64,000 nt of DNA from Microcoleus sp. FACHB-1515 (GTDB taxonomy: Bacteria; Cyanobacteriota; Cyanobacteriia; Elainellales; Elainellaceae), in assembly GCF_014696105.1 (NCBI RefSeq), contig NZ_JACJPO010000038.1:62001-126000 (forward strand). The letters are read 5' to 3'. The notes beneath the pieces were generated by a model that saw nothing but the letters and a program-made list of their open reading frames with translations, was not told the origin of the DNA and made no database searches. Shown piece by piece: positions 59,350 through 62,872 of the stretch; the first letter of the stretch is position 1; every line of letters starts with the position of its first letter. Both the position numbers and the translations under genes were made by a program.

Positions 59350-60414
59350 CTACTCGCCTTTCTTCTCAGGCATCATGCACTTGTCACTGTCGCAGCCCGC
59401 AGGTCCTTCGACAACCGTTTCACCCGAATCGTAGCGGGCTAGAGCCGCATAGAAATTATGGGTCTGCTGGCGCGATCGCACCTCATTTTGCAATCGAACG
59501 AAAGTCGCTCGATCGATTTTCTCAAACGGCAAACGTGGAAACGGCGCATCAAATCGAGCCAGCAATGCTGCACTGATGTAGCCTTCATCCTGCTCGATCG
59601 CTCGATAAATTCGCTCGGCCAGCGCCTCGATTTCGTCTTCGCGCAGTTCGATTGTGGCGCTTGTATTGTGCGTGGTGTAGTGCCGCTGCACCTGCATGTA
59701 GAAGTCCATCTGAGCAAGGGCAGAGAACTGTTCGATCGCAATCTCGTCAGCTCCCGGCAAATTCGCCCAAGGCACTTCAACCGGAATCTCAACCAGCCAC
59801 TCGGTACAGCGCGGATCAAACGGATCGTTCAGTAAGTTGCCCTGCTCGTCTTTATCCGACTGCGAAGGCACGATCGAATAGCCGTAATCGAGGCAGGCCA
59901 AAGCAACCGGATCATTTTTGCGGAACGTGATGCGGCGAATGAAGCGCTGCGCTTTGGGCGGATGCCAGCCCGCCGATGCGCCTGTAAGCAGCGACTTGGT
60001 TCCGGCGGGCTGAACCGTTGTGCAGCGGTTGGGGCGCTTAAGATGATTGCGATCGCAATACTCCCACACCGTCTGATGGACGGTATCTCGCCAAAAACTG
60101 AGGTATTCCTGCTCTTTTTGCTTAAATTCCAAGCCCTGCATCGTATCCGGTCGGCCTTGCTCCCACCAGCGCAGCCACTCGACCCCAAACGCCTGAACAA
60201 AGAAGTCAAACAGTCCGGTGAACGAAACGCCGACGATCGGGTCTAGCTCCCGCGAATACTGATAGCGCGGCTCCTGAAAGCGGTGATGCAGCAGCACAGC
60301 AACCGACAAAGCTCCGGCGCGGAAGGCATCGATTTGGGATTGGCGATCGATCGGATCAAGCTGGTTAAGATGAACCTCCGCTAAATTGCAGTGAAAGTCA
60401 GTGCCGATAATTTC
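59350..60414 (-). CDS. nrdJ: Class II ribonucleotide reductase, C-terminal half, exon 2
   Basis: This exon codes for 354 residues that follow directly on the 26 residues of exon 1 (61580-61657) after removal of the intron. It starts with the Glu of the active-site motif NPCG-E (EIIGTDFHCNLAEVHLNQL). It includes GVSFTGLFDFFVQAFG, TVQPAGTKSLLTGASAG (the phosphate-binding PAGT region) and the C-terminal redox cysteine pair CDSDKC. The protein needs adenosylcobalamin. A TTG at 60417 could start an unspliced product, but this would lack the catalytic cysteine. The N-terminal half is a separate translation unit at 61673-62872. Confidence 0.9.
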   Translation of the reverse strand, partial: EIIGTDFHCNLAEVHLNQLDPIDRQSQIDAFRAGALSVAVLLHHRFQEPRYQYSRELDPIVGVSFTGLFDFFVQAFGVEWLRWWEQGRPDTMQGLEFKQKEQEYLSFWRDTVHQTVWEYCDRNHLKRPNRCTTVQPAGTKSLLTGASAGWHPPKAQRFIRRITFRKNDPVALACLDYGYSIVPSQSDKDEQGNLLNDPFDPRCTEWLVEIPVEVPWANLPGADEIAIEQFSALAQMDFYMQVQRHYTTHNTSATIELREDEIEALAERIYRAIEQDEGYISAALLARFDAPFPRLPFEKIDRATFVRLQNEVRSRQQTHNFYAALARYDSGETVVEGPAGCDSDKCMMPEKKGE

Positions 60415-61579
60415 CAATATATTTTGTTACCCTAGAGGCTTTTTATCCCCTAGCTCTAATGCTTCCGAATTCGCATTAGTTCCGCGTACATTTTCTACGT
60501 AAGTTCTTAGAAAGAAAAGGAGATTTTTTCGACTACAAGGTTTTCCAACTACGGTTTGACAGACTGTACGGATGTCGATGATGCCGTACTGCTGGGCGAT
60601 CGAGTTGTAAAGCGGTTCAAATAAGGGCTTTAGCCTGTTGAGCTTGACGCTGAATATCTTTTCCGAATGGCTAACCGCAAAAGCAAGAACTTGTTCACGA
60701 ATTTCTCGATCGGTTGTCACGGTTTTTCCGTGTTGGGCGTTGACAGAACAGGTATAGGAGTAAAACTGCTTTCCTTTTCTTCGCGCCATTCCTGGCGTTA
60801 CCGAAAATTCTGTTCCACAAAACTTACAAACGAGAGAAACCCGTTCAACTAAAGGACCTGTTTTAATTCCTTTTCGAGACTCGTGATATTGTCGCTTGCG
60901 ATCGCTGTTTATGAACTTTGCTCGAAAGACGGGATCTTGAAATCTGGCTTTCGCCTTTGCTGCAATTTTCGCTCTGGTGCTTTCTGACTGAGTAACGCCA
61001 TACATCGGGTTTCTCTGCCCGGAAGTGTCCATTCCACGAACTTTTGCTTGAGATTTCCATTCTCGCCTAAGCTGTTCAAACACAAACGGAGTTGACTTGA
61101 TCAAGCATCTGAGGTCTTTTTCCTGAATCACGATGACTTCTGCTTTGAATTCGGCTTTGAATTGCTGAATCTTGGGCAGGTCGTGTGCATAGTTGAAAAC
61201 GCCTTTGATTTCAACATATTCACCAGTTTCGAGTAGAAAATCTGGTTTATACCTGACGCCATTGGATAGCGTATAGGTTGCACTTTCGTAAGTCCAGGTA
61301 ATCTCTTTGTAGTCCAAATACCTCGCGTAGATGTATTCCAGACTTGACCTCAAACAATAGCCCTTATAGAACCCTGAGTAGCCGTAAAAGGTACTCGCCA
61401 TACGTAGCTCCGCACTCTTGGAGAGATTATATTCTGATTAAGTACAAATGTACAAATTTTAGGTTCACTCTCTACGCTGTACGGTGGCAGAAGCGCTTTA
61501 GTTCTTCTACTTACCTCGGTATTAGCGATCGCAGCCTTCACCGATTTTGCGGAGTTTTTAACGTGAGGCAAAATTACCT
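60415..61579 (-). mobile_element. Group I intron in nrdJ with homing endonuclease
   Basis: The 1165-nt insertion starts after the codon GGT (61580) and ends with G (60415), as group I introns do. The 5' exon end GTGTGGT (61586-61580) pairs with the guide GCCTCAC (61569-61563), with the hallmark U-G wobble at the splice site. AATTTT just before the guide pairs with the 3' exon start GAAATT, a 6-bp P10. A Q-like element AATACCGAGGTAAG (61523-61510) and its P4 partner ATCGGTGAAGG lie in the 178 nt before the endonuclease gene, so the core precedes the reading frame. P7 and P3 I can place only roughly. Confidence 0.85.
60427..61401 (-). CDS. Intron-encoded homing endonuclease, PD-(D/E)XK type
   Basis: A 324-residue protein inside the intron. 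Near its N-terminus it has RYKPDFLLETGEYVEIKGVF, with Asp54 and Glu64-x-Lys66 as the PD-(D/E)XK catalytic core, in the style of the I-Ssp6803I group known from cyanobacterial group I introns. A NUMOD3-like DNA-binding motif (QRNPMYGVTQSESTRAKIAAKA) is at about 129-150, a zinc-ribbon-like CKFCGTEF follows, and a helical C-terminal domain ends the protein. GGAG lies 6 bases before ATG 61401. The stop is 12 nt before the intron end. It carries GCGATCGC at 60898, so it has probably resided here for long. Confidence 0.9.
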   Translation of the reverse strand: MASTFYGYSGFYKGYCLRSSLEYIYARYLDYKEITWTYESATYTLSNGVRYKPDFLLETGEYVEIKGVFNYAHDLPKIQQFKAEFKAEVIVIQEKDLRCLIKSTPFVFEQLRREWKSQAKVRGMDTSGQRNPMYGVTQSESTRAKIAAKAKARFQDPVFRAKFINSDRKRQYHESRKGIKTGPLVERVSLVCKFCGTEFSVTPGMARRKGKQFYSYTCSVNAQHGKTVTTDREIREQVLAFAVSHSEKIFSVKLNRLKPLFEPLYNSIAQQYGIIDIRTVCQTVVGKPCSRKNLLFFLRTYVENVRGTNANSEALELGDKKPLG

Positions 61580-61657
61580 ACCACACGGATTTAGGCCATA
61601 GCGAGACAGCCGATGTTCTAGCTCTTGTTCGATCGCGTTCATGTCAATTGCAGTCAT
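61580..61657 (-). CDS. nrdJ: Class II ribonucleotide reductase, C-terminal half, exon 1
   Basis: Twenty-six codons (MTAIDMNAIEQELEHRLS, then RYGLNPCG) start the second polypeptide. A near-perfect Shine-Dalgarno AAGGAGG lies 6 bases before ATG 61657. The last codons encode N-P-C-G, including the catalytic thiyl-radical cysteine; the intron splits this motif from the Glu that follows it. Without splicing, translation would stop two codons into the intron (GGT AGG TAA). Confidence 0.85.
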
Positions 61658-61672
61658 TTGATTCCTCCTTGT

Positions 61673-62872
61673 TTAAACTTTGGACTTTTGCTCGATCAGC
61701 AGCGTTCTCAGGAAATCTTTCGCTTGCTCGCGTGACTCCTGATACAGGGAAACGAATGTTTCTTTCTTTTCCGGGGTGTCGAGCAAATCTGCATTGGAGC
61801 GGGCGATCGCTTCTCCTGCCCACTGAATCGCGCCCTCGCCAGAGTAATACTGCTTGCGAACCGCCTCAGTGCATTCCTCCAAGGTTGGCCTGCGGTGAAA
61901 GACGCGAGTGTGATTTGCCATTCGCAACGAGTCGCGATCGGGATCAATCCGCCAGTTTCCTTCAGCGTCTTGCTGCCACAGATTTTCTTTTGCTCCTGCA
62001 AAGGCAGCATCCTCGCTCGATCCCTGCCTCATACCCGCAGATCTGCGGATATTGCCTGCAACAATGGTTACAGCCGCTTCATCGATCAGCAAGCAGCATT
62101 CGACTGAAGTAAGCTGACGCCCGATCGCCCGATTCAAAATCTTTGCACATCGCTCATATAGTCCCGGTAGCCGGACGGGATTGGCAACGCCCCCGAAGCC
62201 GGACAGGGTTTCACCTGCGGGTCGCACGTCCGAGAGATCGATCGCCACTTGCACAGTATCGGTGAAGCGATCGTCGCTCGATAATTCCAGCAAGGTTTGA
62301 TAGGACGACACCCAGCCTTGGCGACTGTCACCGACGAAGATTTCAACTTGATTACCACAGATGTTGACAGTGGTGCGATCGCGCCTTTGCTCTTTCGGAG
62401 TCGTGCCAATTTCGCCGCGCAGAGTGACTTCGAGGCGATTGCGGATGGCGGGAAGTTGAGAAATGTATTTCGGTTCAAGCACTGCGCCCGTGCCGCTGCC
62501 CATCATGGCGAGATCCATCATTAGGCCGAACGATCGCCAGTCGGTGACGTTGGTGCTGGTGCAGTTGTAAGCACCCGAATAATTTTCCGGCTTGCGAATC
62601 CAGTTTGTGCCGCCGACCCACAGCCAGCGACCCGACGTTAAGCTTTTGAGTTCGCGCTGCATCCGCTCGATCAAGCTAACTTCTTCGGGCGTGAGCTTGC
62701 CAAGTTCAATTAAGCCCTCCAGGACGCGATCGCTGACTTCGCCCCAGGTTTCGCGCAGATTTTTGTCCTTAAGACCTCTGCGGCTGTAGGTGCGGTAGAA
62801 GACAGAATTTGCGGCAGGAGCCGAAGTTGGAAACGGACTGGTCGATCGAGTACGTTCAAGGTCGCGAACCAT
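61673..62872 (-). CDS. nrdJ: Class II ribonucleotide reductase, N-terminal half
   Basis: A 399-residue protein corresponding to the first half of adenosylcobalamin-dependent ribonucleotide reductase, which makes deoxyribonucleotides. It contains AVIFYRTYSRR-type start, GRWLWVGGTNW, the redox cysteine in AYNCTSTNVTDWRSFGLMMDLAMMGSGTG, ETLSGFGGVANPVRLP and AGNIRRSAGMRQG. It ends ...REQAKDFLRTLLIEQKSKV at a TAA. The sequence continues in the same frame after 15 nt as a new start with strong Shine-Dalgarno, so the enzyme is encoded as two chains. Starts at ATG 62872. Confidence 0.92.
   Translation of the reverse strand: MVRDLERTRSTSPFPTSAPAANSVFYRTYSRRGLKDKNLRETWGEVSDRVLEGLIELGKLTPEEVSLIERMQRELKSLTSGRWLWVGGTNWIRKPENYSGAYNCTSTNVTDWRSFGLMMDLAMMGSGTGAVLEPKYISQLPAIRNRLEVTLRGEIGTTPKEQRRDRTTVNICGNQVEIFVGDSRQGWVSSYQTLLELSSDDRFTDTVQVAIDLSDVRPAGETLSGFGGVANPVRLPGLYERCAKILNRAIGRQLTSVECCLLIDEAAVTIVAGNIRRSAGMRQGSSEDAAFAGAKENLWQQDAEGNWRIDPDRDSLRMANHTRVFHRRPTLEECTEAVRKQYYSGEGAIQWAGEAIARSNADLLDTPEKKETFVSLYQESREQAKDFLRTLLIEQKSKV

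Follow-up and report, generated by a model that had tools for sequence, protein, structure and literature searches.

A group I intron in the active-site motif of a split class II ribonucleotide reductase gene of Microcoleus sp. FACHB-1515, with signs of spread by homing among cyanobacteria

The divided nrdJ locus

The 64,000-nt stretch of DNA analysed here, referred to as the window, carries nrdJ on its minus strand in three pieces, namely ORF1, the 26-codon start of ORF2 and the rest of ORF2. ORF1 (61673..62872), taken from the ORF list, encodes NrdJ-N with 399 aa, matches positions 19-346 of the profile TIGR02505 and ends in a TAA stop codon at 61673-61675. It is followed by the Shine-Dalgarno sequence AAGGAGG (61664..61670) and by exon 1 of ORF2 (61580..61657), which begins with an ATG at 61655-61657 and has NPCG at the end of its 26 codons. 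The stop codon, the Shine-Dalgarno sequence and the ATG that divide the gene are all located within 61655-61675. Exon 2 (59350..60414), with GAA as its first codon, contributes 354 aa and the stop codon and covers TIGR02505 positions 379-723; NrdJ-C as computed from exon 1 and exon 2 comprises 380 aa.

TIGR02505 is a 724-position NCBIfam model of the adenosylcobalamin-dependent ribonucleoside-triphosphate reductase, and the N half alone scores 326.4 on it, below the whole-protein cut-off of 340.05. Judged by the profile, which spans both halves, and by the presence of the NPCGE loop, the gene is a class II adenosylcobalamin-dependent NrdJ of the RTPR type. Using a profile of ten intact cyanobacterial NrdJ proteins, NPCGE was aligned to chain residues 406-410 of the solved enzyme structure 1l1l, of which Cys408 is taken here to be the radical-carrying residue. 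The interruption falls between the Cys-Gly and the Glu codons. Codon 2 of the intron is an in-frame stop codon in the window copy, and an in-frame stop codon lies inside the first three intron codons in all 23 intron alleles found (see below). Since nrdJ is also split upstream, removal of the intron alone does not yield a single ORF. The initial annotation had correctly recognized a ribonucleotide reductase gene, whereas the assignment to NrdJ of the RTPR type, the upstream split and the stop at intron codon 2 had been missed.

The intron and its endonuclease ORF

The group I intron described here (60415..61579, minus strand) is 1165 nt long, with its first base at 61579 and its last base, a G, at 60415; it is followed by the GAA of exon 2, which begins at 60414. 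This span had been given exactly in the initial annotation, and the exon join NPCG|EIIG was correct as well. The terminal G is present in 23 of the 23 copies checked. According to the alignment of copies, P1 consists of the exon strand CGTGTGGT (61580..61587) and the guide GCCTCACG (61562..61569). The P1 pairing suggested before, exon CGUGUGGU with guide GCCUCACG, could be reproduced for the window with U.G kept at the splice site and one internal U-U mismatch. The same is true for P10, in which the guide AATTTT (61570..61575) faces GAAATT at 60409-60414, AAUUUU pairing with GAAAUU in the RNA, and of which five pairs were counted. P7 was placed by the alignment with its 5′ strand GCGTA at 61473..61477 and its 3′ strand TACGC at 60484-60488. 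The 3′ core (60415..60489) contains the P7 3′ strand, P9, P9.1 and the terminal G and overlaps the end of the endonuclease ORF.

A search with the Rfam model RF00028, which had been proposed as a check, was negative for the window and for the five relatives tested: no match was obtained over the window at the gathering score, in 60380-61700 at E<=10, in four relatives (L012-L015) at E<=10 or in a phage copy at E<=1. As a positive control, the model does recover another intron of the same genome with 64.4 bits (L001, G000:C63:244842-245086). By eye, this intron is located in tRNA-Leu(UAA); ARAGORN gave no gene there. The best Rfam match within the nrdJ intron was SAM_alpha with 21 bits (cut-off 36) over P1 and P3, which was taken as chance. 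Because the Rfam model misses this branch of group I introns, genes of this kind are easily annotated as broken, as had been anticipated. For the same reason, the support for a group I intron comes from comparison among relatives.

For this comparison, a covariance model of the 5′ core, R1, was built from 12 sequences. In its alignment, which also bears on P1 and P4-P6, 99.0% of 312 cells are paired, compared to 90.2% in shuffles and 37-46% in slid controls; as many further pair types as in the alignment were seen in 108 of 500 shuffles. R1 matched in 27 of 388 cyanobacterial genomes, with 23 strong matches (E<1e-13), all 23 of which are located in nrdJ at the same codon; the recurrence at one codon is therefore more than chance.

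Pairing was analyzed in 22 of 24 copies, leaving out G116 (exon 2 not found by pattern) and G008 (core boundary not found). P1, P3, P4, P5, P6, P6a, P7, P7.1, P9, P9.1 and P10 are paired in 95-100% of cells, and P5 and P6 are the only ones among them that lack changes on both sides of a pair. The cells paired amount to 131/132 in P3, 132/132 in P4, 65/66 in P5, 66/66 in P6, 148/151 in P6a, 110/110 in P7 and 99/103 in P7.1, with both-side changes in four pairs of P3, two of P4, six of P6a, one of P7 and four of P7.1. P1, P5 and P6 scarcely vary among these copies. In P1, 154 of 154 cells pair and the single both-side change, G-C to U-A between exon and intron in the phage copy, is weak as covariation since the helix is otherwise nearly invariant. 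In P10, 105 of 110 cells (95%) are paired, a value equalled by the best of 200 shuffles, and A-U is replaced by G-C in four copies along with the Ile codon of the exon. P7.2 as drawn failed (50/103 cells paired) and was either misdrawn or misaligned.

On this comparative evidence the intron is a group I intron, so that the earlier proposal of such an intron with a PD-(D/E)XK and NUMOD3 endonuclease in the nrd active-site motif is supported. Group I introns of subgroup IA have extra helices between P7 5′ and P3 3′; the intron described here is probably IA-like. Two copies are only 288 nt long and keep a remnant of the endonuclease gene, and one of them, with short exon flanks, folds at z = -6.7 compared to 100 shuffles.

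The homing endonuclease ORF (60427..61401, minus strand, 324 aa), to which PD-(D/E)XK and NUMOD3 profile matches were obtained, lies in the P8 region. It begins after P3 3′ and extends beyond P9.1, which means that its final portion runs across part of the intron core. The PD-(D/E)XK nuclease with a NUMOD3-like element named in the initial annotation was found again, with Phage_endo_I (PF05367) at E 6.9e-5, below the Pfam cut-off, and NUMOD3 at 20.9 bits, above the cut-off of 20.4. Further matches were obtained to T7 endonuclease I in the PDB (2pfj, E 0.0028) and to PHROG endonuclease and resolvase families. The residues E22, D54, E64 and K66 fit the pattern E, D, E-x-K, which is assumed here to be the catalytic pattern of the T7 endonuclease I type. 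The AlphaFold model has a mean pLDDT of 67.7, and a fold search with it returned nuclease folds near the top, none of them at E<=0.001. Taken together, the ORF is predicted to encode a T7-endonuclease-I-like PD-(D/E)XK homing endonuclease with NUMOD3, sharing the PF05367 and 2pfj matches and the residue pattern with T7 endonuclease I and PD-(D/E)XK homing endonucleases. Unlike T7 endonuclease I, this predicted nuclease has a NUMOD3 element and a zinc-ribbon-like stretch and sits in an intron.

Relatives of the endonuclease were found by protein search in 14 of 388 genomes of the class, including that of the window, and all 13 with a readable upstream flank are inserted in nrdJ at NPCG|E. Omega ranges from 0.09 to 0.14 in the four of 15 pairs with finite dS, one of the four being near saturation. 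A pattern scan gave no viral relatives, and five weak, partial phage matches were obtained.

With respect to composition, it had been proposed that the intron has adapted to its host. The two HIP1 octamers GCGATCGC on which this was based are present at 60898 and 61525, and their density is about that of the window (121 in 64 kb), which fits the proposal; the G + C content, 43.3% in the intron against 52.8%, does not. The octamer at 61525-61532 lies, by eye, in the P5 loop, where it is unique to the window copy among those aligned and the loop is one base longer.

Distribution of the split and mosaic flanks

A search for the same insertion site, as suggested by the initial annotation, showed that 23 of 388 cyanobacterial genomes, as well as one phage contig, have the intron at this codon. 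In 13 of the 23 genomes nrdJ is split as well, and these belong to five families: f1 (1), f13 (3), f16 (3), f24 (4) and f25 (2). The remaining ten alleles (nine from family f32 and G008 from f9) carry the intron in an unsplit gene. A near full-length endonuclease gene is present in nine of the 13 split alleles, in two of these with one stop codon, and such a copy is absent from all ten unsplit alleles. Conversely, NrdJ-N and NrdJ-C are separate genes in family f17, which does not have this intron: in G049 they lie on different contigs, and in G035 about 720 kb separates them. The N halves of this family end at the same loop, and the start of the C half could be read in G049 and G016. The link between split and intron is thus not obligatory. 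Among the loci with unlinked class II reductase halves (L078-L083, f17), the C parts of G035 and G016 have intein-like insertions.

An intronless split as a general trait was considered and, for the matches listed, rejected, as the two-match pattern of many f13 and f1 genomes mostly goes back to shortened linkers in one ORF or to intein-like large ORFs in the 60 genomes chosen from among these matches. Besides G312, which has intron and split, six of the 60 looked broken. Three of them (G049, G035 and G016) are f17 genomes with the halves apart, G016 being counted without a reading of its N half; G007 has a frameshift, G150 a stop with no new start seen and G233 a break elsewhere. In G045, the halves stand in two frames about 1 kb from each other.

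In the window, the two ORFs share one frame with a single TAA between them, as would be expected if a full-length NrdJ were made by read-through or frameshifting and the split were only apparent. In other alleles, however, the halves stand in either of the other frames or are separated by several stop codons; across the split alleles, all three relative frames are occupied, which argues against read-through as a general rule. Furthermore, ORF2 has its own start preceded by a Shine-Dalgarno-like sequence (by eye), and the f17 halves are unlinked genes. A single full-length product is therefore given very little credence.

The origin of the split alleles was analyzed by comparison with intact relatives. 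G285, of the same genus as the window genome G000, has a single open frame across the junction and a normal 207-nt linker. In a tree built from the distal N half of 45 sequences, G000 groups with G285, G170 falls among g84, G246 among g44, G054 groups with G025 and G250 with G134. The last four of these groupings of split alleles with congeners hold in the C-half tree (61 sequences), for which G285 was too short; there, G293 (f13) groups with an f16 genome. Clean intact congeners were available for four genera, and in these four the DNA identity to the congener is 89-96% over codons 346-360 and drops to 49-61% over codons 361-385. In the 27-residue linker, identity to congeners amounts to 22-30% for six split alleles, and the closest split allele from a different family reaches 59-85% identity for 12 split alleles; intact congeners are 67-96% identical among themselves. 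This comparison included 12 split alleles, with no row for G293 and G288, and the intact set minus G134, G155, G007, G150 and G008. In the window, the foreign tract 5′ of the intron extends over about 61580..61780 and contains the split, its left border being approximate (about codon 365 of ORF1). Downstream, the signal is short and weaker: identity to congeners is 69-78% in exon-2 codons 1-12, where five control pairs show 78-97%, and 79-88% in codons 25-40, where the controls show 75-94%.

These data bear on how the split and the intron came together. Transfer of the whole nrdJ gene with both by ordinary horizontal transfer, without homing, would agree with the presence of the split linker type in f17 and, unsplit, in phage; it is largely refuted, and considered quite improbable, because the distal N and C regions group with congeners and the identity to these is back at 89-96% by codons 346-360 in the four genera. 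Homing of the intron followed by independent splits in each lineage, as a repeated adaptation after its arrival, would explain why leaders and tails differ in length and frame and why, outside f17, the splits of this type found among the matches listed were in intron-bearing genomes. Since the linkers are 59-85% identical across families at best and 22-30% identical to intact congeners, the linker sequence itself is shared, and such independent origins are regarded as unlikely.

The mosaic is best explained by homing in which short flanks were co-converted, and the foreign flanks indirectly support cleavage of the intronless allele near the insertion site; recombination of short tracts without cleavage, a further possibility, looks the same. 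Co-conversion of exon flanks is already known, e.g., from the plant cox1 intron (PMC3192709). The data suggest a spread of the intron between unrelated cyanobacteria in which the gene cut travels with it.

The favoured and quite likely explanation is that a mobile group I intron entered nrdJ through endonuclease-driven homing, co-converting its flanks and carrying the fission along. The P8-region PD-(D/E)XK endonuclease would cut an intronless nrdJ, and repair would copy the intron together with about 200 bp of donor DNA on its upstream side and a few codons on its downstream side, which is supported by the mosaic pattern. The upstream tract would have brought the fission, i.e., the stop codon, the Shine-Dalgarno sequence and the new ATG in a loop 26 codons before the splice site, so that NrdJ-N (399 aa) would be made directly and synthesis of NrdJ-C (380 aa) would require spliced RNA. 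For the latter, the intron RNA would fold into a group I core, guanosine would attack at the U.G pair of P1 and the exons would be joined as NPCG|EIIG; in unspliced RNA, a ribosome on ORF2 would halt at intron codon 2. The two chains would then assemble into an active enzyme without a covalent link.

The omega values of both NrdJ halves against congeners are 0.021-0.096, compared to 0.029-0.101 for intact control pairs, and by this measure both halves are under purifying selection. PF02867, PF00268 and PF13597 gave no match in the genome of the window, which is rated 100% complete, and no second intact nrdJ copy was seen, as judged from the best junction match (5.8e-58) among the matches listed. 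Purifying selection on the halves and the lack of any other detectable reductase point to a functional two-chain reductase. They also argue against a decaying pseudogene with the intron, the stop and the endonuclease as debris, for which some endonuclease copies with stops or reduced to remnants could be cited. With omega this low, the endonuclease ORF of the window open and no other reductase found in the genome rated complete, decay is thought to be extremely improbable.

Phage copy, known systems and related cores

The phage copy is located in the IMG/VR contig 3300018933_000001 (146,537 bp; L122), in which the intron interrupts the contig's own nrdJ at the same codon (R1 134.7 bits). Here, nrdJ adjoins a DNA polymerase gene, and a terminase large subunit was identified (E 6.2e-69). 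Between residues 35 and 324, the endonuclease is 54% identical to that of the window, and its frame changes near residue 35. The linker of the contig is not split; its mean identity is 50% to split-type linkers and 27% to intact host linkers, and the f17 linker of G049 shows 56% versus 32%. Judged by these linkers, the donor may have been a phage or f17-like. Apart from the phage nrdJ itself, no near relative of it was recovered in searches. The DNA of the phage copy matched 20 phage records, 18 of them solely within the intron, in short stretches of the 5′ or 3′ core. In nine cyanophage records the stretch from the linker to NPC is unsplit and the intron is absent; one of the nine has an intein straight after NPC. 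A 15-base motif was found in 44 viral contigs, of which R1 matched one at the nrdJ intron, seven outside nrdJ with 45-76 bits (L107, L112, L119, L120, L128, L132 and L137) and one with 17.8 bits, the remaining 35 giving no match.

A group I intron in the reductase gene of Nostoc punctiforme was already known (Meng 2007, as cited in passages of PMC12702839, PMC1995217 and PMC3984707). Like the present one, it is a group I intron that interrupts a reductase gene of a cyanobacterium, and according to the title of that work it carries an insertion sequence element; the likeness refers to these descriptions. As the short f32 copies without a full endonuclease gene sit at NPCG|E, they and the Nostoc punctiforme intron may be the same intron.

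Divided reductases have also been described. In the Aeromonas phage Aeh1, nrdA likewise consists of two ORFs, its division being linked to the homing endonuclease gene mobE (passage in PMC3653736); there the endonuclease gene itself separates the pieces, whereas the nrdJ fission adjoins the intron and appears to travel with it. The same passage describes two consecutive ORFs, nrdJ-a and nrdJ-b, lying 12 nt apart in the Thermus phage phiYS40; it names no intron, and the likeness refers to the arrangement as two ORFs. The NrdJ of Pseudomonas aeruginosa, a class II reductase of two polypeptides, was described in 2015 as the one split RNR found outside viruses (passage in PMC4520616). According to this source, NrdJa is catalytic and NrdJb is a redox part of 229 residues, whereas the window gene is cut before NPCG, within the catalytic domain. 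A split of the P. aeruginosa type could be ruled out for the window, where the split lies inside the RTPR profile. A literature search that covered few subscription papers returned neither a split cyanobacterial NrdJ nor a fission-carrying intron. The new part is the travelling fission, a group I intron in a cyanobacterial reductase having been known before.

According to the usual description, a mobile intron does not alter the product of the host gene once it has been spliced out. In at least five cyanobacterial families, homing appears to have altered the architecture of an essential enzyme, giving a two-chain reductase cut in its catalytic domain. Cells would thereby have a second type of split reductase, and gene fission by co-conversion becomes amenable to direct testing. 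Furthermore, the alleles offer a natural test of the effect of translation near the 5′ splice site on a bacterial group I intron.

More tentatively, the fission and the intron might form one selected mobile cassette. With a start some 25-29 codons ahead of the 5′ splice site and a stop at intron codon 2 or 3, the folding ribozyme would be shielded from the ribosomes that translate the 400-codon N half, and fission-carrying homing copies would therefore splice better and be tolerated in an essential gene. Cyanophages might serve as the reservoir, because the phage nrdJ has the same intron and the same linker type and is still unsplit. This reading is held to be doubtful.

Besides the nrdJ intron, R1 detected related cores in other contexts. 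In G138, G171, G087 and G212 (L072, L073, L074 and L076), rtcB, encoding an RNA ligase, is interrupted after SLGGG by a related core with 45-55 bits, and none of these four insertions was matched by RF00028. The insertions L072-L074 contain an ORF of 273 aa; RtcB and LAGLIDADG_3 were identified by Pfam in L073 and by eye in the others. G212 has both the rtcB insertion and the nrdJ intron. In G097 and G212 (L095 and L096), an nrdJ intron of 246-247 nt is followed a few codons on by an intein-like insertion after FHC, so that an intron and an intein may coexist in a single gene. A weak R1 match of 37.7 bits in G318 (L075), outside nrdJ and any obvious rtcB, is probably due to chance.
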